Assembly (NCBI GenBank): GCA_012064415.1
Contig: SSNU01000177.1
Location: forward strand, 125,855-189,854
Direction of reading: 5' to 3'
DNA from: Gyrodactylus bullatarudis
Taxonomy: Eukaryota > Platyhelminthes > Monogenea > Gyrodactylidea > Gyrodactylidae
DNA: 64,000 bases
In this document: piece by piece, positions 24,581-63,350 of the stretch
Position numbering within the stretch: the stretch's first letter is position 1
Layout: every line of letters begins with the position of its first letter
Translations under genes and position numbers: made by a program
Notes under the pieces: model-generated
What the model saw: only the letters and a program-made list of their open reading frames with translations
The model's database searches: none
Told to the model about the DNA's origin: nothing

Positions 24581-24628
24581 CCAGGGTAGAATCTGAAGAG
24601 ACCTGGCGAAATTTAACGTTAATCACTA
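24581..24628 (+). ncRNA. Hammerhead-like motif with CCAGG/CCTGG pseudoknot helix
   Basis: CCAGG 24581-24585, core CTGAAGA 24593-24599, CCTGG 24602-24606, then C and GAA. Stem III is ATTTAACGTTAAT, followed by C and ACTA. Stem I is weak here (AAT opposite ACT), so activity is doubtful. A TTTATATC box lies just upstream. The 5' flank matches the copy at 57318-57365. Confidence 0.6.
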
Positions 24629-25774
24629 TGATATACGTCAGTTTTTCTCTATTACCTTACCCCAAGAGTTCAGAACTCAATAATAGTAATATTTATAACA
24701 ATATTATCGTTTAAATCAACAAGAGTATTATTGAAATAATTCAAAATCAACACTTTTTCGAAATGATTCGAAATGAACACGAGACATAAATCACAAGTTA
24801 ATAAAGATTTGCAAAATTGATACGTTTTTTATCCAATAGTATACTTTTTAATTCAAGATTCTGGCAAATAAAGAAGTTTTTAGTATTATTAAATGATATG
24901 AATTACATGATCTTCTAGAGAACGATGAATTCTGTTTATTTGTATGAATTAAAAATAACTAAAGCCTATTTCTTAAGTAGTTTTAAGAGCTTAGATTGAA
25001 TCAGGGTGAAAAATAACTTGATATTCTCCCACAAGCTCACCTAGATTTTCTCATTGGTCCATGTAATCGACTAAAAATATTCAACCAAAATTAAGACCAA
25101 CAATTTTTTTAAAGACGTGTGCTTCATTTATGTTCAGAGAAGATCAAGTAAATTTAAAAATTATTTTCAAGAACTGGATTAAAATTATCGAAAATTTTTT
25201 TTATAATAATTAAAAATCACTCTTCTCTACTAATCCCTAAAGTTTACAACAAAGTCTCAATGAAATTTTTTTCAGATTCAAGTCATCCAGAAGAAAATCA
25301 ATATGAAATTAAACAGAATATAATGTATTTATTTTCTTATATTAACGAATAACTTGAAATAAAGTTAACAAGAAAATCTTGTCATCTTTTATGAATAGAA
25401 TTTATCTCTGTTTATTATGGAAATAGATGCAATACAATGCTCTTATAATTTAGTTGTCCTGTTACGAATAAAACGTATCTATATTGTTAGAAGTTCAATT
25501 TATAATATTGATATTAGAAGTATCTCTTATTTATCTGAATGGTCAAAAACCAAATACACAGATTAGACTTGAACAAATCGAGATAAAACTTTCAACTATT
25601 CTCGATGAATTTGAAGATTAATGATATATTTTTGAAAATTAAATTTTTTTCTTAAACCGATAAAAGTTTTACTTTTGATTCGAGTTTCTGAAAATCTTTA
25701 AAATTTTGTAAAAATTATAAATTTCTAAATTCTTCAAGAATAGCTAATAAAAGAAATATTTGATTTTTTCTACT

Positions 25775-27390
25775 GATAAGTAAAAAATACTCGTATGAAT
25801 ATTAGGAGTAGATTTTTCAAATCTCCAATTTTCAGCCTGTATCGGAGTCAAATTCAGTTTCTTTTTTTGTGAATCCGGAGAAAAATATCGAGTTTTTTGT
25901 AAAATTAGTAAATTCTCATCTTCATGTGAATTAGGTTTATTATTGCAATTATTTATTTAATTAAAAGGCTTAATTCCAAAAATCACTCCGAAGAAATTTT
26001 TTTCCAAAAAGCACCCCAGAAATCACCCCAATGAAAATTTCAACTTTTTACCTCGAATCAATTATTCTCATTTCAAAATTCCCCTCTTATTGAATGGTGT
26101 AAGTTGAATGATTAAAATTCTTTATGCAACTACATGAGTTTCAGAAAGATTGAAAGTGTACTTTCTCCTTAAATAGAACCTTTGACGGTAAAAACCTTGC
26201 GCGAATCTAGATTCTTACAAATTTTTGCTATCCTTAAAGAAGATTTATTTCTTGTTTCTCAAGATCGAAATAGTGAAATAAGAAGAGTTGCTAACTTCAG
26301 CAAACTCCAATGCGCTTGTAGTTTGCAAAAATTATTGAATATCCCTATTAAAATCTGTATGCCGTGGCTTAAAAGTCAGAAGTTGTTTTTAAAAAGTATG
26401 CTCCACGTGAATACAAAATAATCTCCTTGAAAGCAGCTTATCATGCTCCGTGACTTCGAAAATCTAATGGAGTCGGAAAGTTACAGTGTAAATTTAAAAA
26501 ATGGAAAACCGTGCAGAAACCGTAAAATATCAAGCGCTGAAAAAAGGTAGATAAATTATTAAATTAAATTATTATTTTAAAAAAATGTTTGGGGTGAATA
26601 TTAGAAAAGATTTCCTTTGGGGTGATTTTTGGAATTAACCCTAATTAAAATATTAAAAATCAAACAGGAACTTTAAAATTCTCAAGATAAAAAAGATCAC
26701 TTGTAAGTAGCCAGACCATCTTTATGCTATTGAACGCCTAAAAATCAAACTTTGGTTCTATTATTACACAATTCGTAATATTTTAAATCATAGAATAACT
26801 TTTATGGTCGGGCATTTCAAAATTACCATAATTGAATTCCTAATGAATATAGAACTCGTGAATTACGAATAATTCTAACATCTCAATTAAATTTTGCTAT
26901 TCTAAATTTCCGACCGTAAAAGTTATTCAATGTGGTAACTTTTTCGAATTGTTTTTAAATTTTTGAAAAACATTATTTCTAAAATAGTGATAGAATAATT
27001 CTATCATAGAATAGAGCCAAAGTTTCATTTTTAGGCGTTCAATAGCAAAATTATGATCTGACTACTTACAAGTGAACTTTTTTATCCTGAGAATTTAAAG
27101 GTTCCTGTTTGATTTTCGATACTTTAATTAAATAAATAATTGCAATTATACGTACCTTTAAACAAAAATATTCTAATAAAATGAGAATTGAGTAATTTTT
27201 GGCTCCATTGAAGGTAATGTAAAATTTTATCCCCATTATGTCACAAGTAAATATAAGATTTATATACTATGTTTTATACATCATTAGAAACATTTCAAGA
27301 AACTGAATTAGACTCTGACCTAGGCTGAAAATTAGAGATTTGAAAAATCTACTCCTAATCAATATGAATCATCTAGAAAAAGTTTTGTCA
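25775..27390. repeat. Nested inverted-repeat complex
   Basis: The outer arms (about 25775-25850 and 27295-27385) are inverted copies: GAGTAGATTTTTCAAATCTC with GAGATTTGAAAAATCTACTC. Inside, a second foldback runs from about 25946 (ATTGCAATTATTTATTTAAT) to 27148, with the inverted end ATTAAATAAATAATTGCAAT. Element C (25967-26641) sits within its left arm. The tail end of an R1-type MITE lies at about 25858-25945. The outer family recurs at 40607-41132. Confidence 0.75.
25967..26641. mobile_element. Foldback transposon C, 9-bp TSD, nested
   Basis: Ends are GGCTTAATTCC and GGAATTAACCC. An exact 9-bp duplication TAATTAAAA lies at 25958-25966 and 26642-26650. Terminal arms carry CACCCC/GGGGTG-type repeats instead of AGTAGCCCC, so it is a diverged subfamily of A and B. 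The 79-residue open frame inside (26182-26421) has no recognised domain. Confidence 0.88.
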
Positions 27391-28479
27391 TAAAAAATTC
27401 TAGATAAACGAATCATAATTTTTATTTAAGCAATAAAAATACGAATTACTACCTATTAATTTCGGTGTTGAAATGCTAATGATAAAAGAGATAAATAAAT
27501 AAAGCGATTATCGAAAGTAATAAATAGTTCGTTCTTAGTTAAGAGAGTTGAAATCGTCATAAACTTACTTAATTTATTGATTCTTTGAGATAAACTTACT
27601 AGTGTTAAAAATAGAATTCGAAAAATGATGTATGCTTGGTTAGATGGAGGATGGAGGAAAAAATTTAATTTTAGAAATAGTATTGTTTAAAAAAGGACCT
27701 TTAATAAACTAGAGATCAGTCAATGTCACTTTAAATTTATTCGTCGAGATAATCATCAACTATCATTAGTCTGTGTGATTCGGAATTTTTATTACTCACC
27801 ATCAAAATAACCAATGCTTTTTCTATTTTTTCTTAGATTTTGAAAAATCGATATTTTTTGGCACCTGAAATCTGGCATTAAAATTTTGGAGCAAGCAATT
27901 TTTGATACAATCAATAGATTTTTGAGCAAATTTCATACGTCAATATCATTCCAAATTTCTTAAATCATGTTGTTGATCAAATTCAACAAAGAATGGATAT
28001 TTGATTATTTCATGTTTTATATAAAGCTAGCTAATATGAAGATGGGAATTTATGGTTTTTACAAAATTCTCAATTTTTTCATCAAGAAATCGAGTTTGAA
28101 TCTAGATCATGAGGCCCTCTTTCATGATACGGAGAAAAAAAATTTAGAAAAAAAATCAATTTTTAAGTAAAATACGGCAAATTTGAAATCTTGAAGTAGC
28201 GCCAAATTCCCATTTTTTTGAACTTTGAGTTGAAAATTTTTGTTGATTTCAATGTGAGAGAGCGATCGAAAGTTGATTTTTAGGATCCCGATTAGTCAAA
28301 GAAACCGATTATGACCATGAAAATTTTGATAAATTCGTCACTTTTCAGGGATTTTGAAATATCAAATTTCATCGACTTTCAAGTAGGGAAAATGATCAAT
28401 AAATCAAAATTTGATTTTGTCACGATTATAAGGTGATTCTCAAAACCATATTTAGCATATTTGATTTCTTTGTCTTATG

Positions 28480-30700
28480 CATGCCTCGGTTGACGACCTG
28501 TCACACAATTTGAGAGACTCCTTCATGGATTACCTTGAAACTGTCAGTAACGCACGGGCCAAATCAAAATCAATAACACTCAATCAAGAAATCGTTCAAA
28601 CTGCCGATGATATCTCTTTCCCAACCAATCCTCAGAATTTCGTATACAACTTAAGCGACATTTCCCTATCAAAAGAAGCCATAGAAGTTCTGAGCCTTGG
28701 GCCAAAATTTTGTGTACCGAACAAACTCAACCCAGACATTGAAACAGACATAGGCTTCGAGCTCTTTCACGATCAGTTAAAAAACGTACAGGCGTCGTCG
28801 ACGTTGAAAGAAAGATTCGACATCGTTCTGAATGACGCAAGAATCCAATTCAAACAACAAAAGATAGATTTTCCATATCTCTCAGTCAAACACTACCAAG
28901 CTCTCTTAGCGATCAGAAAACATCTGCTCCCTGATCCTAATGACAGTCCAGAACATAGACTTCAAATTCGACGGCTCACACTTCCGACAAATAGGCGGCG
29001 TAGCAATGAGAACTCCACTCGGCCCAATCCTCGCAGACCTATTCCTAGCATCCCTGGAATCGTCAAAAATGCAAAACATCATAAAAAAGTCCCATCTTAC
29101 GTTATGTTGACGATACTTTTCTCTTCCTTCCAGATGATCAAAACCCAGAAACCCTACTGAATGAACTCAACACAATCCACCCGCGTCTGAAGTTCACAAT
29201 GGAGATAGAATCAAACCACATCCTCAGCTTCCTAGACACACTGATAGAACGAATAGCTTCTCATCCAAACTCCACAGGAAACCAGGTATCCCAACAAAAT
29301 ACATGCCCTTTACCAGCTTCTGTCCCATCGACACCAAAAGAGGCCTTGTTCACAGTGAATTTCTTAGAATAAACCGCATTGTATCTACTCATCTCCAAGA
29401 AGAAGAACGGGAACGCACATTCAAACTTTTCGAACTAAGTGACTACCCGAAACAATTCATCCGCAAATTTGCCAAAACGAAAGAGAAAAACAAAGGCCCC
29501 GATGAAGAAAACAGCGAAAAACACATCGTACTCTCCCTTCCATTCAAAGTTGATGTCGCGAATACCATATTGAAGAACAAACTTAGTAAAATCACTACCA
29601 ATACCTACCCGGGAAAAAAACTCAGGATCCTTTAAAAACAACGAAACTCTTGAACGACAAAAACAAAGAACCGACCGATTGGAAATCCAAACAAAATGTG
29701 GTCTATGAGTTCAAGTGTACATGTGGGGAATCTTAAATAGGTATGACAACCAGATGTCTGTCAGCTCGAATGAAAGAACACCTCAACAAAAAGAATGACA
29801 CATCCTTTGTACAAGCCCACATAAAAGACTAACCACTCAGCAGGCTTCGAAAACTAGAAAATAAGATACGCTACTGACCCAAAACTGAGTAAACACAAGT
29901 CAAAACGTATCCTAGAAATAGTCGAGGCAAAGCTAGTGAACGAAGAGCAACCAAAACTATCTGCCCAAAAAATCCTTGAAAGACAACTAGGTTTCACAGG
30001 AGCAAATTTCCATAAATCGCGAAAAGTGCTTCAAAAGGTTGCTAAACTAACGAACCCGACACAACCAAGAAAAGTAGGTCCAATTCCAGCACAAAAATCA
30101 CCAAAATCAACATCAGTTGACAACAAAACCTCTGGAATAACACCCGAACCAAAATTCACCTCTACTCAAGCCCAACATCACAGAGAAACAATAACACAAA
30201 TTTTGCCCCCACAACTGCCCGGGTAAGAAAAACTCCAACCTCAACATTAGTTAATAGACAATCCCAAAACAGTTGTGACGAAGCACTCATCCCAGCAACC
30301 ATGGTCCCCCAGAATGACAACCAACACACAGACACAGGAATGGCTAGAACTCGTTTCTTTTCACAACCAGAAACATCCATTCCATCAAGGAAAAGAAACA
30401 CATCAATATCCCCCCAACAAAAAGGAAAACAGAGAAAAAAGATCCCGAGCAACAACAAGACCACAAACCTAATACATGAGGAACACACCTCAATCCCATC
30501 GAAGGAGAATGAAAGCGATTGGTCAGAATTGAGCAGTGTATTTTATTCATTGATAATTATGTATAAATATTACGTGTCGGTGTAAGGTCTGATGAGAACC
30601 GACGAAAATAAAAGCTTTTATTCACCTTAAACTCGTCGTTCTACTAACCAGCATGACTAGCAGTCAGCAACAAACAAACATTTTGCAAGAAAAAAGGCAG
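28480..30700 (+). pseudogene. Penelope-like element, internally deleted, own 6-bp TSD
   Basis: This GC-richer insertion is flanked by CTTATG (28474-28479 and 30701-30706). Its N-terminal frame reads NLSDISLSKEAIEVLSLGPK, the typical PLE N-terminal signature. The middle of the reverse transcriptase is deleted. Sequence resumes at GGVAMRTPLGPILADLFLAS (palm), then a shifted frame with YVDDTFLFLPDD, the catalytic motif, then HILSFLDTL. A decayed GIY-YIG nuclease follows near 29700-29810 (a stop replaces Y of YIG in GES*IG). A Gln/Pro/Lys-rich tail runs to about 30500. The hammerhead (30576-30629) lies 77 nt before the end. Several frameshifts make it non-functional. Confidence 0.85.
30576..30629 (+). 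ncRNA. Hammerhead ribozyme candidate with GTCGGT/ACCGAC pseudoknot
   Basis: Best-preserved copy. Stem I: TAAGGT 30583-30588 with ACCTTA 30624-30629. Core: CTGATGA 30589-30595. GAA: 30604-30606. Stem III: perfect palindrome AATAAAAGCTTTTATT 30607-30622. Cleavage would follow C30623. An additional helix pairs GTCGGT (30576-30581) with ACCGAC (30598-30603), leaving a 16-nt loop holding the core. A TATAAATATT box lies about 10 nt upstream, and AATAAA is inside stem III. Confidence 0.8.
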
Positions 30701-31379
30701 CTTATGACCAGAGATTTGATAAATTCGTCATTTTTCTGGGATCTTGAAATATCAAATTTCATCGACTTTCAAGTAGGGAAAATGATGAAAAAATCAAAAT
30801 TTGATTTTGACACGGTTTTCATCTTAAAAAGTTCACACAAATTCTTCATTAATGTTGGAAATGAAACCATTTGAATATTCTGGTTATAACGAAGGAAACA
30901 GATCCAAAATTTATAAATGAATCTTTTTCTTAGAGATGGAAATCTCTAAACCTCTATTAGTCTGTATCTTGGAAATTAATAAAGTTTAAGCTTGAACGTT
31001 AAAAATTAGAAATTTGGCACATTCTCAAAGTTAAAAAATAGCCTAGTTTTAATATTATCGAGTTTCTTCTGAAAATAGTAAATATTCATCTTCATCCGAA
31101 ACAGCTTTATATGCTAGACCTTATGGATATTGAATACAAAACCGAATTAATCATGATTATTATTGTTATCGTTATTACGAATTAGTAATTCACGTAGTTT
31201 CTCAAACACGTCCGAAAATCCATTTAAATTCATAATTTAGAAAATTGAGAGAAGATATTAAAATCAGATGAACATTTCTTGAAACATCATCATCAGTGGT
31301 AATTCTTCAAAAATGATATAAGTTAAGATTTCATTCAAGATACTAATTTACAAATTCAGAAAGAAATAGTAAAAGTCAA

Positions 31380-31960
31380 AGAAAATAAGGATAAAATGTA
31401 AGCTGAAAAAACACCAAAACTCTCCAATCAATATCAACAGTGGAGAGAAAAATGAAAAAGCTGACATTGGCGAAGTTAGTTGAAGATTATAGGAATACAG
31501 ATTAGGTTTATGTAGGTTAATAGGAAATTTTTCTTTCACCCATACGTCTATGCTTTCGTAATTAGGGTTTTTGTATAAAACGCAGAAATTAGAAATTGAA
31601 TCTGCATATTCTTCTTGTCTAAGATGTGTAGTAACCGCAGTATCCTTCTTTAAATGATCCTCCGCTCTTGTAGATAATTTCCTAATAGTTCTAGCTATAT
31701 ATGAGGATCTACAATCACACTGGAATTTGTAAACTAATAGAGTTTTCTCCTCTGGCCTCAGCAAATCCTTTTGAATCAAACTAAATAATCTCTGAGTTTT
31801 AAATACAATTTTCAATTTAGTCTTCTCCTAATGTCATTACTGAACCCATCTCCTTTGAAGTTGAGCTTCATAAAAATAGTTGTTTTCTCCAATTCATTCG
31901 TTTCGAAAACCTCATTCATATCCATAGACACAATCATGAATTTTTTATATTCAACTAGAA
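31380..31960 (-). pseudogene. Penelope-like element 3' part, GIY-YIG damaged
   Basis: Minus-strand frame ending near 31460 reads EEKTLLVYKFQCDC then SSYIARTIRKLSTRAEDHL and a tail ending NLQLTSPM, closely related to 45919-47244. The GIY-YIG glycine is replaced (YIA instead of YIG). Upstream, ENNYF-type coding (EKTTIFMKLNFKGDGFSN) continues to about 31950 with a small deletion near 31820. The 3'UTR hairpin lies at 31420-31447. The reverse transcriptase is absent. Confidence 0.82.
31420..31447 (-). other. Conserved PLE 3'UTR hairpin
   Basis: CTCTCCA/TGGAGAG stem with a 14-nt loop, shared with 3312-3339 and 47259-47286. Confidence 0.7.
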
Positions 31961-35310: not shown

Positions 35311-35318
35311 AATTAACT

Positions 35319-35537: not shown

Positions 35538-35764
35538 ATTCAAGTTTAACTGGTTTTTTTCAACAGTTTGAGCAATAATTCCTGATCTGCCGATCCATCC
35601 TCTTGAGGTATGCTTGATGAATTTTTAAATCGAACGAATTTCTTACATCTTTAAAGTTGGGAATCGGCTTATGGATTATTTTAATGAATTCAGACTCAGA
35701 AAGTTATCTCATGTCTAATTATAATTAGATAATTGAGAACCGCTCTTCATCTAAAGATGTTTAG

Positions 35765-36629: not shown

Positions 36630-36757
36630 AGACATTAAACCTACTAGCTAAGTGTGGTCACTGGTTATTAGGTGTGAGAAGACAATACCCATCAAGTTAG
36701 ATTCACAAGGATATAGTAATAACCAGTGACCACACTTAGCTAGTAGGTTTAATGCCT
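36630..36757. repeat. 128-bp hairpin MITE related to F1
   Basis: AGACATTAAACCTACTAGC and its exact complement GCTAGTAGGTTTAATGCCT form the ends. About 41 bp on each side pair almost perfectly (including GTGTGGTCACTGGTTATTA). The centre contains GTGAGAAGACAAT as in F1. This is a minimal deletion derivative of the 460-1270 family. Confidence 0.85.
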
Positions 36758-43583: not shown

Positions 43584-43601
43584 TTAAGAATCAAAACTCA
43601 C

Positions 43602-44135
43602 TTGTTCTATCACAAAGATACGATCTTTATCCTTATTTTCACCAAGATTGAATTTGATATTGAAATTATAGAAAGAACTATACGCTAAGGATTTTGCATC
43701 AACTTCAGAATTCCAATTCTGTTTGCCTGCTGGTAAGAAGTATGCCTTTGATCGATAATCCCAAGTGTTGTTAGACTTTTTGATCCATAATTTCTTGAGC
43801 ACATCAATCTTTTCGGCAAAGGTTAGAATATGACTAGGGTTATTTGATTTTATATCCAATTTTCCTTTAATATCACTAGCTGTTGGTAAACTCAGGCATA
43901 TTGTAACACCGGGTAACTGATCATAGACATAATCTTCTGATGAGGAATCTAACTGAAACGCTGTCTGATGTTGCATATACTGTCTGACGACAAATGAAAT
44001 GCATATTAGTAGGCCTACACACATGGTGGCAGTGAAAATAGCCCAAACAATGCGGACTGGACGGTCCTTTGCATTGGCAATTTTGGCCAATGGTACCAGG
44101 GAACTATTGATAAAAAGTCTTCTGAATATTGACAT
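43602..44135 (-). CDS. DEG/ENaC sodium channel subunit, exon 1 (N-terminus, TM1)
   Basis: First exon of host gene 1, 178 codons from an ATG at 44135 to a phase-0 donor CAA/GTGAGT. The first 25 residues are cytoplasmic. TM1 follows (IVWAIFTATMCVGLLICISF, about residues 29-50), then the family post-TM1 motif as LPGVTICLSL. The early ectodomain includes DYRSKAYFLPAG. The cytoplasmic His-Gly gating dipeptide expected before TM1 is not seen (NSSLVPLAKI stands there). Joined to exons 2 and 3 the product is about 558 residues, normal for the family. It should form a trimeric cation channel at the plasma membrane. The promoter was not identified. Confidence 0.9.
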
Positions 44136-45089
44136 TTTTTACTTATCCTGTTTTATTCTTGAGGAGATCATGTGATGCTCAATCCTTATTAATTCAAATA
44201 GTCAACAAAGAAAAATTTATACAATTTTAAAAATATATACTTCCCATAAACTGTAAATTACTCTCGAACAATTGGCTGATTGGTTAATGAGGTTAACCAA
44301 TAGAATTCTAGTATTTGCTTTACACTATTTAATTCAATGAAGGAAATTTCGAAATTTTCTATTTTTCCTGTTTAAAAAATAGGAGAAAGGTTTCAACGGC
44401 TTAACTTTTGGAATAATATTTTTATCTAATATAAATATTTAAATTTTAATTCAAATTTCGATAGACTGTTTCTCTAAGAGCAACCCAAGTAACTCTATGG
44501 AAAAATTATAATATAAGTTAAATTGAATAATTTATATCGTTCTAACTCAGATTCTATGGAGCTGAAATAGTTTTAATACATATTTTTCAACTTTTTCTTA
44601 AAAGGCATCTTGAAATTCTCAGTATGTATTTGCATAAACATATCATTTTTCATAGGGAAGAAAATGATTTGAATATCTATTTGGTAAGTACTATTGATTA
44701 TATTTCCTAACATCTAGTCAAGGCTATAAAAATCGTTCTATTCCTAATGATTTAGACCAGATAATTGTTTCTTTCAACAGGCTCACATGAAAAACCCTTG
44801 GATAAATTATATAAAAGCTAATATATATGGATCATTTCAAGCAGTTGTTTTTTAGGATCAGAATTAGACAAGGTAATCAGGAAGGACTATAGTGATTCAT
44901 TTTATATTGGAAGAATCTATCAACAAAGTATCCCCAAACATTAGCCCATATCAATAATTCTGAATTGAATATGAAAATTTAATTTCTTGAAACATTTCTT
45001 AATCATTCTCATCCTAAAATGTCACTTTAACCCCTATCGAGACGATATGAAAACCAATCGAGAAAAATACTCATAATAAATACTTATTT
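44136..45089. other. 5' flank of the DEG/ENaC gene
   Basis: AT-rich sequence upstream of the start codon. CCAAT-type bases occur (44275-44310: TTGGTTAATGAGGTTAACCAA, an inverted repeat), but no promoter can be assigned. Confidence 0.4.
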
Positions 45090-45670
45090 TAAAAGAAAGA
45101 CTGAAGGAAAATGAATATCCAGATAACTTTGTTCGAAAATACATTGAGAAGAAGCTAACCAACAAGAGACTCAAAATGAACAAAATGAATCGAATATCCA
45201 AATTCATGTCAGACTAACATTTAAGGGAGCTGTACATAGCCATGACCTAAGAAGAAAGCTGAACACGCTTGTGAATGAAAACTATGATGGCATACAATTG
45301 AAGGTTGTATTCAAAACAGCAATTTTGATCAAATTTCAACTTAAAGACAGGCTAGAACCAAAAGAACAATCAAATCTCATTTACTGCTTCGAAGCTACCT
45401 GTGGTGTTAAATACATTGGACGGACCAAAAGAAGACTTGCAATTAGAATACACGAGCATCTTAACAAGAATAATTCTTCAATCAAAAAACATTTGGATAG
45501 ATGCGGTTGTGAGGAAAATGAAGAAAATTTCAAAATCTTATTCAAATGCCCAAACAACAACCTAACAGAACTCAAAATAAGAGAAAATTTCTTCATAATG
45601 AGAGAGGACTCTAACCTATTTATCCAAAAGAACCATCTTCATGACTTGCAGTTACTCTGGCCCAATTGAT
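45090..45670 (+). pseudogene. Penelope-like element 3' part with intact GIY-YIG
   Basis: The frame reads LKENEYPDNFVRKYIEKKL, then after a frameshift RLTFKGAVHSHDLRRKL and on into an uninterrupted nuclease domain. VKYIGRTKRRLAIRIHEHL holds the YIG, the conserved arginine and the EH pair. It ends LHDLQLLWPN and stop at 45669. Compared with 45919-47244 it is another subfamily. The reverse transcriptase is missing. The degenerate hammerhead at 45818 follows about 150 bp downstream, so it may be this copy's 3' pseudo-LTR. Confidence 0.85.
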
Positions 45671-45817
45671 TTTTAATTTTTCTTCTCTATACTTGAACAA
45701 ACCAAGAATGGAGAATTTTTTTGGTTTTTCATCAATTGGAAGTTTTGTGAATCAATTTTACTATTTTTCATTAACTATTTAGTCATTAAAAAACTTTGTA
45801 AATATTATTTAATCAAA

Positions 45818-45863
45818 CCAGGATTAGAGATTGATAAGACCTGGCGAAATATATATTTCTCTT
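45818..45863 (+). ncRNA. Decayed hammerhead with CCAGG/CCTGG helix
   Basis: CCAGG 45818-45822 pairs with CCTGG 45840-45844. Stem I AGAGA (45826-45830) pairs with TCTCT (45858-45862). GAA 45846-45848, stem III ATATATAT. The core is TTGATAA instead of CTGATGA, so catalysis is probably lost while both helices persist. It lies between two PLE copies, the expected position for a pseudo-LTR in a tandem array. Confidence 0.6.
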
Positions 45864-45918
45864 ATAAAATTCTTTTTATAAATTAACCAATGATGGATAT
45901 AAAAAATGATGATAGAAA

Positions 45919-47244
45919 TTGGATATGTCGTCATGTCCACAACATAGTTTAGCTAAATGGTTGATTGGTATATTGAAACCAATCCATGAATATTATTCTA
46001 AATATGTTGTAAGAGATACATTTTCATTTGTTGAAAAAGTTAAGGATTTAAACATAAGTTCAAAAGAAATGATTTCTTTAGATATTAGTTCTTTATTTCC
46101 TAATGTGCCTATAGAAGAAACTTTAACTATCATCAGTTCTTTTATCGATGAACATAACGGTTTTGAAATGCAGAGTAAGGAAATAACAGACCTTATCAGG
46201 ATTTGTTGTACAAATGTTCCTCTATCTTTTCAAAACAAAGTGTTTATCCAAAAGGACGGTATAGCTATGGGTTCACCTTTAAGTCCTCTTTTAGCTGATA
46301 TCTTTTTAGGTTGGTTAGAACTCAATAAAATGTCCGAAACAATTAATTCTTTTACTGATGTGTACATCAGATATGTGGACGACACTTTTATTTTGATGAA
46401 ACCGAATGTATCATCAGATGACTTTTTCTTAAAGATGAATTCGTTTCATTCTAATGATTTTCTAAGTTTCCTAGACGTTAAACTAACTAGATGAGATGAC
46501 GGCTCAATTCAAAGAAACATCTTCAAGAAAAAGACGGACAATGGCAAATATCTGCATTTTGCTAGTTTTAGTCCTATTTCACATAAAGTTGGTCTAGTAA
46601 TTGGATTGAGTAAGAGGATAAGAAGGATAGCGAGTCCAGAAGAAATTCCAAAGGAAATAGAGAATTTGAAGTTGTGTTTAATGGAAAATGGGTATCCCAA
46701 TAAATTTGTGGACAAATTTATCAACTTACCAGTCGATAGAGATGTCGTTGAAAACACAGATGAAGTTGAGAAGACCACAATTTTCATGAAACTTAATTTC
46801 AAAGGAGATGGTTTTAGTAACGATTTAAGGAGAAAGTTGACAAATCTCATCGATCAACATTATAACAACATACAATTGAAAATTGTATTTAAAACTCAGA
46901 GATTGTTCAATTTGATTCACAAAGATTTACTGAGACCTGAAGAGAAGACTCTATTGATTTATAAATTTCAATGTGACTGCGGATCTTCTTATATAGGACG
47001 TACAATCAGAAAGTTGTCAACTAGAGGGAACGATCACCTTAAGAAAGATACAGCGATAACTAGGCATCTTAGACAGGAAGGGCATGAGGCTTCAATTTCG
47101 AATTTTTCAATTTTATACAAAAACCCGAGTGATGACAGTACAGACGTTTGGGTGAAGGAGAAATTCTTCATAAATTTATATAAACCAGACTTATGTGTTC
47201 AAAAGAATTATTCCTATAACCTTCAACTACCTTGGCCTATGTAA
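45919..47244 (+). pseudogene. Penelope-like reverse transcriptase/GIY-YIG, one stop codon
   Basis: Nearly intact 5'-truncated PLE. The polymerase shows LDISSLFPNVPIEETL (first catalytic Asp), GIAMGSPLSPLLADIFLGWL, then YIRYVDDTFIL with the YVDD catalytic pair, then FLSFLDVKLTR. A single TGA at about 46492 splits the frame. The downstream part includes SASFSPISHKVGL-type sequence (HFASFSPISHKVGL), KRIRRIASPEE and a GIY-YIG nuclease with CDCGSSYIGRTIRKLSTRGN. It ends NLQLPWPM and stop. The N-terminal domain is missing. Adjacent to another PLE 3' end in the same orientation, it looks like a tandem array. It is the youngest-looking PLE coding region here. Confidence 0.92.
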
Positions 47245-47286: not shown

Positions 47287-48401
47287 TTTTGGTGTTTTTT
47301 CAGCTTACATTTATTCTATTTTTCGTCAACTTTTACTATTTCTTTCATAATTTGTAAATTATTATTTTCATTCATCTTTTAACTTTTATCATTATCAAAG
47401 AGACACTACTGACGAACCTTTGAGAAATGTACATTTGGTGTTAATATATCCTTTTTCTACTTTTCCAATTATGAATTTATGTGGATTTTCGGACGTATTT
47501 AAAAATTTACGTGAATATTTTTATCGTAATAAAAAGATTCTAAATGAGATTCTCATGGAATAAGTAGATGAAAACCAAATTTTACTATTTTTGATTATTT
47601 TATCCATTTTTAGACATTTTGGTATTTTTGAGACTTTTTTAGCGTAAATTATAAGATAGATTATGTGATATTATTTAGACCTGCGTAATAACTAAGAATT
47701 TCCGACTTTGAATAATCGCCCTATATAGGGTGAACCTCTCGAAGGCCAAAGAAAGAATAGAATACATCATACATTTAAAATGTAATTATTTTTAGTTCAA
47801 CTGAATTTTATTAGGTCAACAAAATAACCTTGATTATGATAAAATTATGAGAATTTAATTTAGATTGGATAACTTTTTCAAAATAAATTCATATTCAGAT
47901 CGACGTCATGATGAGCTTTTTTGTCATCAGCAACACTACAAACAATTGTTCTTGTTTTAGAAAAATCAAATCTGTAACTCCTTCGAGACTTTTCACGTTA
48001 GAAAGTTTAAATTAGATTCATTTCCAAAGGCAAAATGAATCTATGATTACAGATTTAAAACTCCCTTGACAGTTTAATGAAATAATAATCCATATATCTA
48101 TCAAAAAGGCTTTCATTATACATGTCCGGTTTCTAAGAATTCTATTATAGATTGCTTTTTTTCACGTGGTCTACCTCTTTATTATCGGTTATCTTTTTCG
48201 TATTATAATTTTGAGGTCTATTTTGAATAAATGTCTATAAACGAACCCATATATCATAAATATTGAAGTATCTTTTTTCCAAGGTTCACGTAATTTTTAG
48301 TTATTGGTGGTAACAAAATGAGATTATTTGGTGCATAAGAATTATAAGCTTTAATTCTTTTAACTGAATTGAAAGTATTGGTGGGAAATAGTGCCGAGCA
48401 T
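47287..48401. other. Downstream of the PLE array, nothing recognised
   Basis: The first 100 bp are PLE 3' untranslated sequence. The rest is AT-rich with no supported feature. Confidence 0.45.
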
Positions 48402-48990
48402 CTTCAAAAATTTTATCTGTATTAGCAGAAATATTCATTTCTTAGAGGATTTTGAAGACGAGTGAATAATGAGTAATAAAGCTTTTATTTCACCGGTTCT
48501 CATCAGACTCTTACACCGGCTTGATATTTGTACATACGATAATGAAAAATTAAAAATCCTCTAATTGGACTAATGGGAATTGAAAGAATATCACAGGGAG
48601 GAGGAGTAGGGTTTTACTGAGTTCATAGTCTTTTCTTGAGAAAGGGATCCAGTTGTAACTGCCCGCTACTTTTTTTTCTTTTGACTCCTCGTTTTTTAAT
48701 TGCACACTTTTTTGATTCAGTAATAATTACAGGTGGGGTACCAATTTGATTATCAACTTCCGTTGACTTTTCCTGATTTGCCGTAATTCACCCTTAGCTG
48801 TAATTGTTACTGTGCATGAAGCGGGTACAATTTCAAGACTAACTGCAGATTGAGAACTAACTGGATTATCAACTTCAGTTGACTTGTCTTGGATAGCATG
48901 ATTGTTCTAATCTGCAGTTGCTGTAGGAACGCTTAACAGTAGCTCAGTGAATTGGGGATTTGTTTGTAAGCTTTTTTTGGAATAAAATAC
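48402..48990 (-). pseudogene. PLE C-terminal tail plus pseudo-LTR
   Basis: Minus-strand frames give a Lys/Ser/Val-rich tail (STEVDNPVSSQSAVS) and then KEKKSSGQLQLDPFLKKRL and stop. The SGQLxxDxFLK ending recurs at 57400-57490 and 60693-61085, each just upstream of a hammerhead. The element then runs through the hammerhead at 48471-48520 to about 48402. The upstream polymerase is absent. Confidence 0.7.
48471..48520 (-). ncRNA. Hammerhead ribozyme candidate with GCCGGT/ACCGGT pseudoknot
   Basis: Minus strand: GCCGGT (48520-48515) pairs with ACCGGT (48497-48492). Stem I GAGT/ACTC, core CTGATGA intact, GAA, stem III ATAAA/TTTAT with AGC loop, cleavage after T. The upstream TATA-like box is weak (ACAAATAT). 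AATAAA lies in stem III. Confidence 0.78.
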
Positions 48991-52134: not shown

Positions 52135-52447
52135 GAAAACAGGGGAAGAGAGCGGCAACGGGGACTCAGAAAATCCAAAAATTCTTCACAACCCCAAAAC
52201 AGTAACTATGCGATTGGTCAGTAATACAAATTAGATACCCTATTAGTTCAAAACAAATGAATATTCGCTATTGGTCAAGACTATCCTTCTATGCTCTTGT
52301 ATTATGTATATATATAACTTCTAAGTCGGTGTAAGGTCTGAAGAGAGCCGACGAAAATAAAAGCTTTTATTCACCTAACCTCTTTCGTCGTTCTAACCAC
52401 CAGCATGACCATTAGTCAGCTCGCTCAGAATATCTTCGAGAAAAATT
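52135..52447 (+). mobile_element. Truncated PLE 3' end inside a MITE
   Basis: A short frame gives KRAATGTQKIQKFFTTPKQ and stop, resembling the KRxSGQLxxDxFLK tail of other PLE ends. Then come a TATATATATAA box, the hammerhead 52325-52378 and the tail CCACCAGCATGACC that also follows the 30.6-kb ribozyme. The RT and nuclease are missing. Confidence 0.7.
52325..52378 (+). ncRNA. Hammerhead ribozyme candidate with GTCGGT/GCCGAC pseudoknot
   Basis: GTCGGT 52325-52330 pairs with GCCGAC 52347-52352 (one G-U). Core CTGAAGA 52338-52344, GAA 52353-52355, stem III AATAAAAGCTTTTATT, cleavage after C52372, then ACC pairing with GGT. Stem I has one mismatch further out. Confidence 0.75.
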
Positions 52448-52957: not shown

Positions 52958-53740
52958 AATGAGTAAAATGCCACCTTCGTTTCAAGCTTCTAATTATAAT
53001 TGGTTCGTTTTGGAATGCAAAATGATGGTCCCAACATCAGTAGTTCTCTGTCCGTCTGGTCGAGCTGCAAATCTGTAAACTTAAAGATGCAGTCTGGAAG
53101 ATTTTTTTTCTTCGTTAGTGAATCAAAGTTAGGTTTTGAGAGTCAACCAAGTCGATGGAAAATTAGAAAAAAATTTAGTCTGAATTTTTCTTAAAGCTAA
53201 TTTCAAAAGCAGATATTTGAACTCTCTTTGTGATAATTGGAACCTCAAAAAGTATTAAAATACTCATTTTAAGCAGCCATTCCCTTTATCAACTTTCGAT
53301 CACTCTTAAACTTTCAAGTCATCAAAAATTATCAACTCAAAATTTAAAAAAAATGGGAATTTGGCACAAACTCTAGAATTCAAATATGCCATAATTTCCT
53401 TGAACATTGATTTTTTCAAAATTTGTTTTTCATATCTCCATGACCTAGAAAATGTTGATCAAATTCGACTTGTTGATGTAAAATTCAAAAATACCCCATC
53501 TTTATATCAACTAGCTTTATTTTGAATTTGCCTTTATCACCAAAGCAATAAAAAACAGAAAAAACTTTGAGTTCTGAGTCGAATAGTTTATTAAGCCAGC
53601 TTTCTAAAACCTAATTGACATGAAGCTGAAAATTTACTCTTTTTACAAATAACCAGATAGCCCCAAAAAATATTTCTGAAAAAAATTGAATCTAGCCAAA
53701 ATAAGGAAATTTAAGCAAATTAAGAAGATGCCAGATTGTT
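52958..53740. other. Repeat remnants
   Basis: An R1-type right half ends near 53517 (CCCATCTTTATATCAACTAG), and a left end begins near 53611 (CCTAATTGACATGAAGC). No gene. The 64-residue open frame at 53000-53194 is unsupported. Confidence 0.5.
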
Positions 53741-53790
53741 TCACAAATAAAGATCTTTATTTCAGGCAACTCATCAGTCTGATACATCCC
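53741..53790 (-). ncRNA. Hammerhead-like motif, related to the 63.2-kb copy
   Basis: Minus strand: core CTGATGA (53777-53771), GTTGCCT, GAA, stem III ATAAAGATCTTTAT, T, then TGTGA against TCAGA (one mismatch). The 3' flank GTGAAACAATCTGGCATCTT matches 63255-63275. The pseudoknot helix is not evident here (GGGAT opposite TTGCC). Confidence 0.55.
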
Positions 53791-54744: not shown

Positions 54745-54800
54745 GGTTGTATTCGACCAAACCTTAACCAATCACAGTATTTAACAGGATTTCAAAATAT
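54745..54800 (+). promoter_or_regulatory. Possible transposase promoter
   Basis: CATTGGTTG (inverted CCAAT) and AACCAATCAC flank a 35-nt span and precede the TATA-like AGTATTTAACAGG about 40 nt before the start codon at 54832. The layout fits a polymerase II core promoter, but no experiment or conservation supports it here. Confidence 0.4.
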
Positions 54801-54831
54801 GTTATTTTGTTATTGAATTCATTTAACAAAA

Positions 54832-57317: not shown

Positions 57318-57365
57318 GAGTGATAAACGTTTTATTTCGCCGGGTCTCTTCAGACTCTACCCCGG
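57318..57365 (-). ncRNA. Hammerhead ribozyme candidate with CCGGG/CCCGG pseudoknot
   Basis: Minus strand: CCGGG (57365-57361), 16-nt loop with GAGT and core CTGAAGA, CCCGG (57344-57340), C, GAA, stem III ATAAA/TTTAT with ACG loop, cleavage after C, ACTC pairing with GAGT. All core bases are conserved (position 7 is free in hammerheads). A TTTATATG box lies upstream and AATAAA in stem III. Confidence 0.8.
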
Positions 57366-57399
57366 TTAACATATAAATACTATTACAATGCTCTATTTG

Positions 57400-57490
57400 G
57401 GACCTTCTATTGGTTCATTTTGCCTTTTGAGAAAGTTGTCAATTTGTAACTGCCCACTGTACCCTTTTGAAAGAAGTTGCGAAGCCAATA
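57400..57490 (-). pseudogene. PLE C-terminal tail
   Basis: The minus-strand frame ends YSGQLQIDNFLKRQNEP and stop near 57400, the same tail motif as at 48600 and 61060. Directly upstream of the hammerhead 57318-57365 in the element's orientation. Confidence 0.65.
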
Positions 57491-58611: not shown

Positions 58612-58920
58612 ACCGAATATACAAGCATTTTAAGTATTGAGAGCTGAGTTTGAAAATGTATTTAAAAATACTCCAACTTTTCTTGAAGAGAAGGTAGATA
58701 TTTTGCATGATTTACATATAATAATTAATATGCATTGGTTAATCGGGATGGCTTAGTGGGTACAGTACCTACCCTGTGTTCAAGTATCAACCCCTGGACT
58801 TTTTTGATAATTTCTACCTTTGTTCTCAGATAGTTCTGAGAATAGATTTTTACATAAATAAAATCCTCTCTATCTGTTTATTACTAAATTCTGTTCGAGA
58901 ATCGTAATGTTGATAGTTTT
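58612..58920 (+). repeat. Dispersed repeat with tRNA-like boxes, copy 2
   Basis: It matches 35765-36093. GGATGGCTTAGTGGGTACAG gives an A-box-like TGGCTTAGTGG, and GTGTTCAAGTATC a weak B box 33 nt later. GTTCTCAGATAGTTCTGAGA downstream is an internal palindrome present in both copies. Confidence 0.6.
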
Positions 58921-59737
58921 AACTCTACTCTAACGCCCATCTTTAGCAGATATTAGTGGGCATTAGATGATAAAAATAGTGTTTAAACATAATTATTTTT
59001 ACGATTTATGGGTACAGATTTCAAGTCCACATACGGGACAGCATTTGACCGCTGTTTTTGCACTCGAATGGGTTAATCCACCAGTTATAATTTGAAAAAT
59101 TAATTAAATTCAAAAAATAAAATAGGGGTCCATTGAGTAACCATGAAAATAATTTTTTTATTATTCAATTGTCATAGATATCATTTTTATCAGGCTTCTG
59201 AAATCTGATTTTGTTTTAAAAATTTTGATATATGCAAATTTTTCTTTTTGTTAGAAGCAACAGAAAAAAGATCAGAGGACGGCTAATAAAAATTAGTAGT
59301 AAACGCTATCAGAAAAAGACATTCCATGGGAAACTTTTGTGTATTCAGTACGTTTTTGTCTTTTTTTAAACAAGGGTGGTAAGAAAAAGAATTTATTGTT
59401 AAAAGAAAATAGCTTTTATTCAAGAAAAATTGTATGATTTTCCAATTTGTAAAGAATCCTGGCACCAGAAACATTTACAAATATCAAATTAATTTTTAGA
59501 TAAGTTATCAATAAGATGCCAATGAAGAATTATCTAAGATAATCAAATAATTCATTAGGGTTCAGGATCGAAATTAAGGATCTAAAAATGTCTAGTAAAG
59601 AGAGCTTTAAGATTAGAATTCAAGAAAAGCAATTTAAAAATAATATTTTAAACTTAGCTTATAGGTATGCTCAATAAAGTTTAACTTTAGAAGCTGAAAA
59701 GATTAGAATTATATTTTCAAAAAATTTTATATTCTTC
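58921..59737. other. Downstream flank of host gene 2
   Basis: AT-rich; no exon, RNA or bounded repeat recognised. It should contain the 3' untranslated region of host gene 2 next to 59738. Confidence 0.4.
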
Positions 59738-59931
59738 TTATGGTGTTTTTCTATAATCTGGAGGTTCTTCATATTCTGGAGCATCTTTAGTTCTGATAAT
59801 TGTCGAATAGCGGGCAAGTTTACCAAAAGGTGATTTATTATCGTTTTGACTCATTATATGGGAAGCATCTTCTATGACTTGTTGGGAAGTTGGCTCTCGA
59901 TTCACGTTATAATTTGGATTACCATTTGTAC
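59738..59931 (-). CDS. Host gene 2, terminal exon (cytoplasmic tail)
   Basis: Minus-strand exon following acceptor TTGACTAG, open for 63 codons to TAA at 59740-59738. The frame needs two bases at its start to complete a codon, so the upstream exon must end in phase 1. It reads TNGNPNYNVNREPTSQQVIE, then SPFGKLARYSTIIRTKDAPE and EEPPDYRKTP. The composition is rich in charged, Pro and Tyr residues (PEYEEPPDY), typical of a signalling or adaptor-binding tail. It has codon-like complexity unlike the surrounding sequence. I do not recognise the family. The intron upstream (59932-62511) contains a MITE, a PLE end and a Tc1 relic. Confidence 0.65.
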
Positions 59932-60037
59932 CTAGTCAAAATTAAGAATCTTATTCAACTTCATGACGGTATAAAAAACTATTGTAACAATGACTCTTGA
60001 TATTAAATTTGATAATATTTACCATATGAATGCTATA

Positions 60038-60252
60038 TAAAGCTAGTTAATATGAAGATGGGAATTTATGGTCTTAACAAAATTCTCAATTTTTTCATCA
60101 AGAAATCGAATTTGATCAAGATTTTATGGAATCTAGATCATGAGGCCCTCTTTCACGACATGGAGAAAAAAACTTTAGAAAAAAACAATTTTTAAGGAAA
60201 GTACGACAAATTTGAAATCTTGAAGTAGCACCATATTCCCATTTTTTGAACT
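60038..60252. repeat. R1 MITE, left half
   Basis: It starts TAAAGCTAGTTAATATGAAG and follows the 49445 copy closely up to GAAGTAGCACCATATTCCCA. It then stops abruptly at other sequence related to the 41.0- and 27.3-kb foldbacks (ATCATTAGAATCGTCTC). Confidence 0.85.
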
Positions 60253-60692
60253 TATATCATTAGAATCGTCTCTTCAAGCTTGATCAGAAAATCACCTTGG
60301 CTAAAAATCGATTATTTGCAAAACCCCTAATAAGCTTCAGAATTTGCAATTACTATTAATCATTCAAAGTAAAAACGAAAAATTATATTTTTATAATAAC
60401 TGAGTTTGCTGTATAATAGCTTTCAAAATCATTTTTACACATACATTTACAATGCAAAGGGTTAATCAAATTTTTTAAACTTGTAAAACTGATTCATGAG
60501 TGGAAAAAGAAATCAGTTATTAGTCCATTATAAGTATGAGAAAAACTACCAAAAGACACCTTAATAGCTACCAAGGAAATTGGAGGCCCACACCAAGCTA
60601 TAATGTAGTGTCTTAGTGCTAGGATTCTCAAGAAAAGAGGTCCTAAGCTAGCAATTCCAGACTCACCAAGTAGAAAAATCAAATTTCTCGCG

Positions 60693-61085
60693 ATGGAAAA
60701 AAGATTTCCGTGTTCAAAGATAAAATTTCAAGGGAAACAACTAGCAAAAATCGAGAAAATTCTCAAGCCCCTACCCACACCAAAGTTCAGTTCAACTCAA
60801 AACACAAGTGTAAATCAAGCTGAAAACCAAGAGAAGTTGGCTGTAGTCAAAAATCACCACACACAAGTGCAGAGTTCAGTCCTAGCAACAAGTGTACTGT
60901 TGGCAAAATGTGAAAAATCCAAGAAGTCAACAGTAGTTGATAATCAAATTAAAAGCCAACCTGCAATTAACACTAGGGTAGATTCGACCAATAAACCCTA
61001 AATTAAGCGAAAACGGAAGAGAAACAGTGGCCAGTTACTAATGGATGAATTCTTGAAAGGCCCTAATTTACTAAAGAGGCAGAAG
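60693..61085 (+). pseudogene. PLE C-terminal region
   Basis: The frame of 102 residues (KFSSTQNTSVNQAENQEKLA, KKSTVVDNQIKSQP) ends at a stop and continues as KRKRNSGQLLMDEFLKGPNL. It resembles the tail of the 28480-30700 PLE (PKFTSTQAQ, VDNKT) and ends in the SGQLxxDxFLK motif. A decayed hammerhead follows at 61190. No polymerase or nuclease is present. Confidence 0.65.
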
Positions 61086-61189
61086 TAATGAGTCCATGGA
61101 TACAGGATTGCTCTCCCCCATCCCCAAATTGAAGGATCTCTTTAACCAATGGAAGAGCACAAAATATTGCATTGTAAAAGTATAAAATT

Positions 61190-61223
61190 GAGTCTGAAGA
61201 GACGAATAAAACGTTTATCACTT
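61190..61223 (+). ncRNA. Decayed hammerhead at PLE 3' end
   Basis: GAGT, core CTGAAGA (61194-61200), GAC, GAATAAAACGTTTATC, then ACTT. The pseudoknot helix and one conserved A are lost. An AGTATAAAATTG box lies directly upstream. Confidence 0.5.
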
Positions 61224-61251
61224 ATTATTCGCTTGTTTTCTAATCTTCCTA

Positions 61252-62020
61252 ATGAATCCAAACCAGAATAGTAATATCTTAGATGAAGTTCCACAATATT
61301 ACCGTTCTAAAATAAAATTTCAACTTAATTTGAGATCTTGTTCAAGATCCATTCAGCGTTATTTGAATAGAAATCCTAATGTCTTCTGGGCAAGACCCAA
61401 AACAGTTCCGAATTTAAAAAGTACAAGGCAAAGACTGGACAACTGATTAAATAGTCGAGAATCAAGAAGTTATCTTCTCAGATAAGAAAAAAATCAACCT
61501 AGATGGTCCTGATGGACTAACTTTTTGTTAGATTGACAAATCTATGCCAAAGCTTACTTGTTTCAAAGGAGAATTGGGAGGCGGTAGTGTCAGGGTTTGG
61601 GGATTCATAACAGCAAAAAGTACTGGTAGTATAATGGATTAAACTCTTATTTCGAATTCGTGTCAAAAGTTGTTAGAAGATCAACTATTGCCCTTCAGAG
61701 AGAGAATGACTAATGGAAAATTCGTTTTCAGCCATATAATGAGCTATGCTATTGATCTGCTATAACAAGAAAATGATTTTCTAAAAGAATAAAGGAAGAG
61801 GTATTAGCTTTACCAACTCGAAGGCCAGATTCGAAACCCATTGAGAATCTCTAAGGGATTTTGACGCGAAAAGTATACGAAAATGGAAAAATATTTCTAT
61901 ACAGGCACGAATTGATATACTTGGAGAGTGAAACCAATTGGTAAAGAAATCATTGAAAGTCTTTACAAATTGATGCCAGAAAGATATCTAAGTATAGTTA
62001 TAAATTTTACGCAATAAAAG
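61252..62020 (+). pseudogene. Tc1-like transposase relic
   Basis: The N-terminal frame has a helix-turn-helix-like segment (CSRSIQRYLNRNPNVFWARP). Then come EVIFSDKKKINLDGPDG (first catalytic block with Asp), GGGSVRVWGFITAK, and RRPDSKPIENL where active members have a PDLNPIE-type block. It continues LTRKVYENG. At least six stops and several frame changes show long decay. It lies in an intron of host gene 2. Confidence 0.85.
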
Positions 62021-62511
62021 GTAAAAATTTTAATTTGTCGTTGAATGAAAAATAGCGGATTCTAAAACTTATTAGCGGTATAAAATACAAATCTGTATAT
62101 CAACTGATAAAAATTTTGTTCGATGATGACTTATAATAACCGAGTGATTGCCAAATTAAGTGGTAACAATTTTTATGTCGACCACTATAGCAGTTTTTGA
62201 TAAAACATGAAAAAAAAATTTTTTTTTTCATTTCTACTTGATAGTAGATTGAAGTTATATTAAAAAATAGAAACATGCCTTTCAATTTAGATTCTTTAGC
62301 ATTGTAAAAAAGTATATTAATACCAATTCCATATTAGCTCATGCTTTTAGTCAAATAATGCAAAATAATATTTCCAATATTCTTCTATTTAAACTTGGTT
62401 ATGCTTGAGAAGCATTATAATTTTAGTTTTAATCAATGTGTCAATAAAATTTATCTGAATTAAAGGTTATTAGAGTTAAACAAAGAGATTCCAATGAAAA
62501 ATTACAGAAAC

Positions 62512-62597
62512 TAGTTTTCAAACTATATATTATGATGAATATGATTACGAGGCCAATGATGACTCCAGCTGTTGTCCCAAAGATTATATATTCTTGC
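62512..62597 (-). CDS. Host gene 2, transmembrane exon
   Basis: Minus-strand exon reading QEYIIFGTTAGVIIGLVIIF then IIIYSLKTS, a single membrane helix of about 23 residues with a GxxxG-like TTAGVIIG face. Acceptor TTTTAG lies before 62597; an alternative AG four bases on (GCAAG) would fit the doubtful upstream exon better. A weak donor A/GTTTCT after 62512 gives phase 1, matching the tail exon at 59931. Together they suggest a single-pass membrane protein with an intracellular C-terminus. Exon borders are tentative. Confidence 0.55.
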
Positions 62598-62913
62598 CTA
62601 AAAGTAAAAAATGACATGATAAATTTTCTAATCGAACATATTCGAACTATGGAAATCATTAACTTTGCAATTAAGCGAAAACCCCCTTGGGAAAATTCGA
62701 TAAGTATTTAATGAAAGAAGATAAATAATAAAGAGGACAATTTGTTACCAGGTAAAAGAACTGTTAAAGTTTGAAGATAAAACTGTTCTGTACATTTCAG
62801 GTAATAATTTCAGTGAAAAATATTTCTAAAAGGAAAAGGCATCAAAAGTAAATTATGATGATTATGGTAACTATTGAGTTGCTGTGAAGAATTGTGTTAT
62901 TTTTAAGTTCTAC

Positions 62914-63084
62914 CTCTTCTCGTCTTCTCTTTTGAAGAGGTTTGTGATGCCGGGAGATTTCTTTCCATTGGTTTAGGTAAGTTCATTGGTTTCACATGAT
63001 TGTTTTGGACGCATGGTTTAGATGTAACCATTTTTCCCTGATGGTTTGTAAAGTATTTAATGCCCATGTCCCCCCCCCAAACTG
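62914..63084 (-). CDS. Host gene 2, possible upstream exon
   Basis: An open minus-strand frame reads MGIKYFTNHQGKMVTSKPCV, HVKPMNLPKPMERN and SKEKTRRG, ending at a plausible donor AGAAGAG/GTAGAA. It is hydrophilic, as expected before the membrane helix. The acceptor is uncertain, a run of eight C lies at the start, and the phase fits the next exon only with the alternative acceptor. It may be spurious. Confidence 0.3.
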
Positions 63085-63180
63085 TAATTATTATGATCTG
63101 AAATGTACAGAAAAATTTTATTTCCAAACTTTAACAGGAACCAATTGGAAAATTGTCAATCTAGACCAATAAAGTTCTCT

Positions 63181-63350
63181 TTATTATTTGCAAAACTAGC
63201 ATTTATATGGCATGAACCACACTGATGAGTATGCCTGAAATAGATATCTTTATTTGTGAAATAATCTGGCATCTTCTTGAATACGCTTATGACATAGATA
63301 GCTCAGCTCAAAACCATTGTTGAAGAACATCCAAACCAGTCAATCAGTCT
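63181..63350 (+). repeat. PLE-type pseudo-LTR segment
   Basis: It includes a TTTATATGG box, the hammerhead 63209-63258, and the downstream tail GTGAAATAATCTGGCATCTT to GAAGAACATCCAAACCAG. That tail is shared with 5220-5335 and, for its first part, 53725-53745. Confidence 0.7.
63209..63258 (+). ncRNA. Hammerhead ribozyme candidate with GGCAT/ATGCC pseudoknot
   Basis: GGCAT 63209-63213 pairs with ATGCC 63231-63235. Stem I CACA 63218-63221 with TGTG 63255-63258. Core CTGATGA 63222-63228 intact. GAA 63237-63239. Stem III ATAGA/TTTAT with one G-U. Cleavage after T63254. Confidence 0.75.

Follow-up and report, generated by a model that had tools for sequence, protein, structure and literature searches.

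Hammerhead-like motifs that share an extra helix occur in a 64,000-nucleotide stretch of contig SSNU01000177.1 of the monogenean flatworm Gyrodactylus bullatarudis (the window), and we confirm both the motifs and the helix in the genome at large. A leader strand lying 1–4 nucleotides upstream of stem I would pair with the 5–6 nucleotides immediately before GAAA. Judging from the letters and their pairing statistics, these are likely to be type-I-like hammerheads in the terminal repeats of Penelope-like elements (PLEs), where stem II is one base pair long (groups A and B) or absent (group C) and the missing helix would be supplied by the leader strand. Group A and B loci share a search pattern with G at position 10.1, the group B helix being GGCAT/ATGCC; in group C position 10.1 is a base other than G.

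A preliminary description of the window had listed seven such sites. On re-reading the letters we find the helix strands at all seven, and the enclosed loop is 16–17 nucleotides long as it said. Two details are corrected here: the loop does not always hold CTGANGA, since the copy at 45818 has the core TTGATAA, and stem I of the copy at 24581 is broken (GAAT against ACTA, 2/4 pairs). Group C had gone unnoticed; the window holds two copies of it with a 6-bp helix.

Leader helix and stem II in the three groups

The host genome comprises 77.3 Mb in 471 contigs, of which number 169 holds the window. The group A/B pattern, CTGANGAG followed by N7 and GAAA (i.e. CTGANGAGN7GAAA), has 2847 matches there (1372 forward, 1475 reverse), compared with 59 for the reversed pattern used as a control; the group C pattern has 2018 against 97. 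The first 100 in the list of 2018 group C matches were judged by eye, and about 80 of them have one form in common; this look was seen in none of the first 100 listed places of the A/B pattern. Coincidence as the origin of the motifs is ruled out by these counts, together with the pairing of the helix relative to shuffles. Viral contigs were searched for one exact helix type and for close PLE relatives, and none were found.

The helix of groups A and B was analysed in 70 places near the head of the match list (contigs 1–28, in list order rather than at random), which were not chosen by their helix. Removal of identical copies and of pieces with short flanks left 67 distinct records from 66 loci. 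A wider set of 186 distinct records includes loops deliberately picked as rare. We call a helix fully paired when 5/5 pairs form, G-U allowed, with the helix strand placed 7 or 8 nucleotides before CTGA. This is the case in 40 of the 67 records, whereas shuffled loops give a mean of 11.8 (maximum 23 in 2000), and the shifted registers 5–6, 9–10 and 10–11 give 0, 1 and 1. For all 186 records the figures are 61 and 16.0 (maximum 29). The helix types are GGCAT/ATGCC, CCGGG/CCCGG, CCGGT/ACCGG, CCAGG/CCTGG and TCGGT with ACCGA or GCCGA, plus the single cases TCTAT/ATAGA and TCGAT/ATCGA. Rare loop variants were considered as further covariation and rejected, many being, by eye, broken copies, several with a CpG change.

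Stem I varies in its own right, with 4/4 pairs in 39 of the 67 records compared with 20.5 after shuffling (maximum 30 in 300 shuffles) and pair types that include CACA/TGTG, AAGT/ACTT, GAGT/ACTC, AGGT/ACCT and GAGG/CCTC, among others. Both helices are complete in 27/67. The independent covariation of stem I that had been proposed for the window copies is thus found in the larger sample, as is the H-type pseudoknot topology, the leader helix crossing stem I. Stem III reaches at least 4 bp in 33/67 and is often palindromic.

The core itself, CUGANGA ... GAAA ... UH, is present in the order C-G-S; this block order comes from the copies read, and the search patterns presuppose C before G. A family with the core TTGATAA deviates by U3/A8. 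Among the first 100 listed of its 396 matches, C3-G8 was counted 55 times, U3-A8 41 times, C3/A8 three times and U3/G8 once. On its letters this family (e.g. window 45831-45849) represents a compensatory exchange, found in nature, at the catalytic 3-8 pair. Covariation to U3/A8 in natural hammerheads is already published (Perreault 2011, PMC3088659, as excerpted).

A separate observation concerns group B, in which 24 of 31 copies have a second GGCAT downstream, 22 of these 23–28 nucleotides after GAAA and past stem I (e.g. L006, L013 and the window copy at 63222). The same is true of 3 of 155 other copies. This second GGCAT could possibly pair with the same loop, as an alternative partner or a switch.

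What remains of stem II differs between the groups. In 66 of 67 records of groups A and B, base 11.1 is able to pair with G10.1, being C (48) or U (18); G10.1 itself is fixed by the pattern. Pairing of 11.1 with the base that precedes the helix occurs in 8 of 40 copies, and we rejected the idea that these groups generally have a sixth helix pair. Since 11.1 finds a partner in G10.1 so much more often than in the upstream base, stem II of groups A and B would be one pair long, with the helix inside its loop. A retained one-pair stem II (G10.1-C/U11.1) with a pseudoknot between loop II and the leader fits these sequences better than full replacement, and groups A and B are filed as hammerhead variants. 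The preliminary idea of an upstream strand in place of stem II is not supported for copies of the kind it listed; its support comes from group C.

These A/B counts also fit an account in which all the groups are ordinary hammerheads whose stem II is merely very short and which have a loop II–leader pseudoknot of the known kind, so that nothing is replaced. Natural hammerheads with a one-base-pair stem II and with stem I/II pseudoknots have been published (available portions of PMC3088659). We consider this account possible but rather doubtful, and it is group C that stands against it.

Group C was sampled at 40 places picked by loop appearance among the listed matches, not at random, giving 38 distinct records. 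In these the 6-bp helix touches GAAA, and two nucleotides separate CTGANGA from the 3′ strand of the helix. The types are TTTATG/CATAAA, TCAAAG/CTTTGA, TTAAAG/CTTTAA, TTGAAG/CTTCAA and TAAAAG/CTTTTA. All six pairs form in 18 records, five in 15 and fewer in 5, where shuffles reach 6/6 in 10.3 on average (maximum 16 in 2000) and other registers in none. Alignment A4 combines 33 of the 38 records with a window copy in 32 distinct rows, five records with other linkers or a poor register being omitted. In A4 91.1% of helix cells are paired, 19 cells are changed on both sides compared with 4.5 after shuffling, and the helix covariation is 0.358 versus 0.134, a value that none of 500 shuffles reached. 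The covariation of the extra helix, first suggested from seven copies, is therefore seen in the larger sets of both kinds, A/B and C. Stem I of group C has changes on both sides at 4 of 5 pairs; stem III is a two-pair form in 89.1% of cells, with no covariation.

The conventional 10.1-11.1 pair can form in 14 of the 32 A4 rows, which is below all 500 shuffles, and is never changed on both sides, while upstream base 1 can pair with 11.1 in 25 of 32. In the window copy at 47395-47441, GAAA is directly abutted by the 6-bp helix, and A10.1 and A11.1 are unable to pair. A hidden conventional stem II was also considered and rejected, as a second pair (10.2-11.2) is possible in 2/67 A/B records and in 9/32 A4 rows, where it does not covary. 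Group C lacks a stem II that adjoins both CUGANGA and GAAA; from the alignment, the upstream strand appears to stand in for it. By its sequence, group C looks, and probably works, like a hammerhead all the same. We lean towards reading it as a hammerhead outside the six published block orders, in which the leader, and not the stretch next to CUGANGA, provides the 5′ strand of stem II, and the conserved 10.1-11.1 pair is given up.

Another account takes the paired strands to be an inherited palindrome of the repeat, or sites of dimerisation between transcripts, rather than a helix within one ribozyme. Several strands do contain the self-pairing CCGG, and PLE hammerheads reportedly act as dimers, as Lunse and colleagues are said to have found in 2017. 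That said, GGCAT/ATGCC, TTTATG/CATAAA, TCAAAG/CTTTGA and TTGAAG/CTTCAA are not self-complementary and yet covary, and the helices of groups B and C hold a fixed spacing of 7–9 nucleotides to the core, which makes this account very unlikely.

Penelope-like elements as hosts

The motifs sit downstream of PLE pieces from several families. A PLE is recognised by a reverse transcriptase (RT) and a GIY-YIG endonuclease (EN), and both are found here. The RT is a PF00078 match. A Pfam search of the EN frames of the window gave no GIY-YIG match, and these frames align with a PLE at another locus, L015, across its PF01541 match (C20:3054-3191).

Helix types follow PLE families. GGCAT is found on L005, L012 and L030, CCAGG on the window element at 45831 and on L062, CCGGG on L063 and L015, CCGGT on L031 (L015 and L031 each with one broken pair), and TCGGT on L014 and at window 30589. 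Over at least 40 aligned residues, the endonuclease pieces are 57–73% identical within a helix type and 26–50% between types.

The preliminary assignment of the motifs to PLEs agrees with their positions. Of 15 motifs no further than 1 kb from a PLE piece, 10 have the nearest such piece upstream of them and on their own strand, or 9 of 13 if the overlapping L031 and L032 are counted once. Within the window, the 30576 motif lies 787 nucleotides downstream of a decayed RT/EN remnant, with its nearest PLE piece (as seen from 30589) on the opposite strand, and the core of the 45817 motif is 165 nucleotides downstream of an EN open frame. For group C, 8 of 10 loci of the family PLE1 have a motif 167–191 nucleotides behind the EN match on the same strand (contigs up to C90, both lists), one of them behind a PLE frame that is open for 813 amino acids. 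The PLE1 piece of the window recurs at eight further places at 100% identity (rounded) over 249 residues, the one on C467 scoring slightly lower. Given these eight places, PLE1 has probably moved recently, and some group C motifs lie on elements that seem young.

Motifs within 2 kb of each other are often divergent, a minus-strand copy followed by a plus-strand copy. We counted 12 of 23 such neighbours in the list for the A/B pattern and 16 of 18 in the TTGATAA list (e.g. C146:15179-15407 and C125:122454-122758).

Several points weigh against the interpretation given here. Position 10.1 is fixed by both genome patterns, as G for A/B and as non-G for C, so the split into classes is partly one of construction, and G-C pairs at 10.1-11.1 could not show in group C, although A-U, U-A and C-G could. 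The choice of group C places by the look of the loop and the exclusion of 5/38 records from A4 count here as well. In that alignment two counts do not stand out clearly from shuffles, namely 3 pairs with changes on both sides (141 of 500) and 8 further pair types (56 of 500), and there are 5 of 24 group C copies in which U11.1 has neither partner to pair with. Beyond the 67-record sample, 21 of 119 A/B records are fully paired, rare-loop picks included. The copies are related by descent, so the shuffle tests overstate significance, and L015 and L031, both used in the position test, have just 4/5 helix pairs. Finally, many copies are decayed, the full helix being gone in 27/67, as it would be if the motifs were dead hammerhead relics whose pairing is kept solely by common descent, an idea we find scarcely probable given that both helix strands differ between PLE families 26–50% alike in protein, that a group C motif follows the 813-residue open frame and that the window PLE1 has its eight full-length matches at 100% identity (rounded).

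Proposed mechanism and comparison with known hammerheads

In the arrangement that we favour, with the leader supplying the missing helix, the pseudoknot helix would take the place of stem II at the core, and 1–4 nucleotides would tie its far end to that of stem I. One helix would then serve as stem II and also as a clamp that keeps stem I alongside stem II. The leader strand runs in the direction that the 5′ strand takes in a normal stem II, and the helix could stack where stem II stacks; the clamp would hold the two stems as the known loop contacts do. Spanning the deep groove of a 5–6 bp helix with 1–2 nucleotides is usual in H-type pseudoknots, and in group C two nucleotides would cross the groove of the 6-bp helix. 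The predicted cleavage site follows H17, with stem III on one side and the 3′ strand of stem I on the other. In one lizard PLE, according to the accessible part of PMC11167929, the hammerhead cleaved only with added protein and was dispensable for insertion in vitro. The likely role would be the processing of tandem PLE transcripts to single units, perhaps by dimers, since a palindromic stem III would allow two motifs to pair. We infer the three-dimensional arrangement, the cleavage, the dimer action and the part in transposition from the motifs and their positions.

Minimal type I hammerheads associated with PLEs were reportedly described in PLE terminal repeats by Cervera and de la Pena in 2014 and by Lunse et al. 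in 2017. The motifs presented here resemble the hammerheads so reported in their type I order, in their location in PLE terminal repeats and, for group C, in a short palindromic stem III. According to passages of two reviews, PLE hammerheads usually lack helix III and/or tertiary interactions (PMC6155905, PMC7761336). The present motifs differ from those in having a conserved 5–6 bp contact between stems I and II and, in 33/67 records, a stem III of at least 4 bp.

In excerpts of Perreault 2011 (PMC3088659), about 40% of hammerheads have pseudoknots of this kind, a compensatory mutant restores cleavage, and the shortest stem II is the single pair of a type II metagenome sequence. As in those hammerheads, a Watson–Crick pseudoknot here joins the side of stem I to that of stem II through a helix with loop II; unlike in the excerpts, whole PLE families have a stem II of 0–1 bp and the leader helix of group C abuts GAAA. 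Eckert 2023 (PMC10085705, likewise in part) describes non-circular permuted hammerheads of types SGC, CSG and GCS, and assumes that CUGANGA and its adjacent stem strands remain together. Those share a pseudoknotted core with ours, type SGC joining stems I and II by a linker of typically 3 nucleotides, but our motifs keep the classic C-G-S order and the strand in the place of stem II is not contiguous with CUGANGA.

Stem I/II pseudoknots, one-pair stems II and U3/A8 covariation (PMC3088659) as well as permuted hammerheads (PMC10085705) are known from the available portions of these papers. The preliminary description knew of no account of the extra helix; loop II–leader pseudoknots in general are published (PMC3088659), and for a leader strand that replaces a 0-bp stem II we found no description in the literature searched, a scope outside which Lunse 2017 and Cervera 2014 fall. 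The assumption cited from PMC10085705 makes stem II integral to the core, and a natural family that draws this stem from a distant strand would, if true, widen the definition of the hammerhead. It would also alter the view that PLE hammerheads are usually without a stem I/II contact, and a new descriptor would be needed for ribozyme searches in eukaryote repeats. In effect, nature provides compensatory mutants in the helix types that distinguish the families.

The same reading, if true, would explain why Rfam models report none of the scanned copies. A scan of the window up to E = 10 gave no match to a hammerhead family. Identity with a known Rfam hammerhead was rejected: at E ≤ 0.01 RF00163 matches only its own 4 of 8 scanned loci, with L009, L013, L019 and L031 unmatched. 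Elsewhere in the genome RF00163 finds at least 57 conventional type I hammerheads, at least 29 of them above the cut-off (73 of 11180 first-look candidates scored). These Hammerhead_1 elements (L033–L042) share their core and their genome with the PLE motifs, and differ in a 4-bp stem II, GUCC/GGAC in the four aligned. Several of them adjoin a GGTTCAAATCCCAG box, which we take to be tRNA-like, and the boxes suggest a SINE-like or retrozyme element.

Inventory of the window

Table 1. Motif copies and pieces of Penelope-like elements in the window
Feature	Coordinates	Strand	Details
Group A copy	24580..24628	+	helix CCAGG/CCTGG; stem I broken
Group A copy	30576..30627	+	helix GTCGGT/ACCGAC; stem I TAAGGT/ACCTTA; stem III palindrome AATAAAAGCTTTTATT
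Group A copy, TTGATAA core family	45817..45861	+	helix CCAGG/CCTGG; U3-A8 replaces C3-G8
Group A copy	48471..48520	-	helix GCCGGT/ACCGGT; stem I GAGT/ACTC
Group A copy	52325..52376	+	helix GTCGGT/GCCGAC with one G-U pair; stem I AGGT/ACCT
Group A copy	57318..57366	-	helix CCGGG/CCCGG; stem I GAGT/ACTC
Truncated group A remnant lacking the helix	61191..61222	+	
Group B copy	63209..63265	+	helix GGCAT/ATGCC; stem I CACA/TGTG
Decayed group B copy	53725..53790 (approximate ends)	-	broken helix
Group C copy	47395..47441	+	TCAAAG - AG - ACACTA - CTGACGA - AC - CTTTGA - GAAA - TGTACA - TT - TGGTGT
Group C copy	31261..31310	-	helix TTGAAG/TTTCAA; core-to-helix-strand spacing 5 nt
Decayed PLE RT/EN remnant	28910..29802	+	precedes 30576 motif
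PLE3 endonuclease open frame	31351..31827	-	followed by the motif at 31310-31261
PLE2 open frame, GIY-YIG-type endonuclease end	45148..45669	+	
PLE1 reverse transcriptase piece	45916..46494	+	PF00078, E 2.6e-10; begins behind 45817 motif
PLE1 RT end and endonuclease	46495..47244	+	group C motif core 165 nt past its end

The window has some further features. An inverted repeat at 22517-23000 has 234-nucleotide arms that are 99% complementary and a spacer of 16 nucleotides; the region searched was 22500-23000, and the repeat may extend further. Some of its sequence scores as microRNA-like hairpins, under the gathering cut-off, and a long hairpin at 36632-36757 has a weak mir-190_2 match, far under the gathering score. 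Pieces of amiloride-sensitive sodium channel genes (PF00858) lie on the minus strand at 6616-7386 and 43584-44138.

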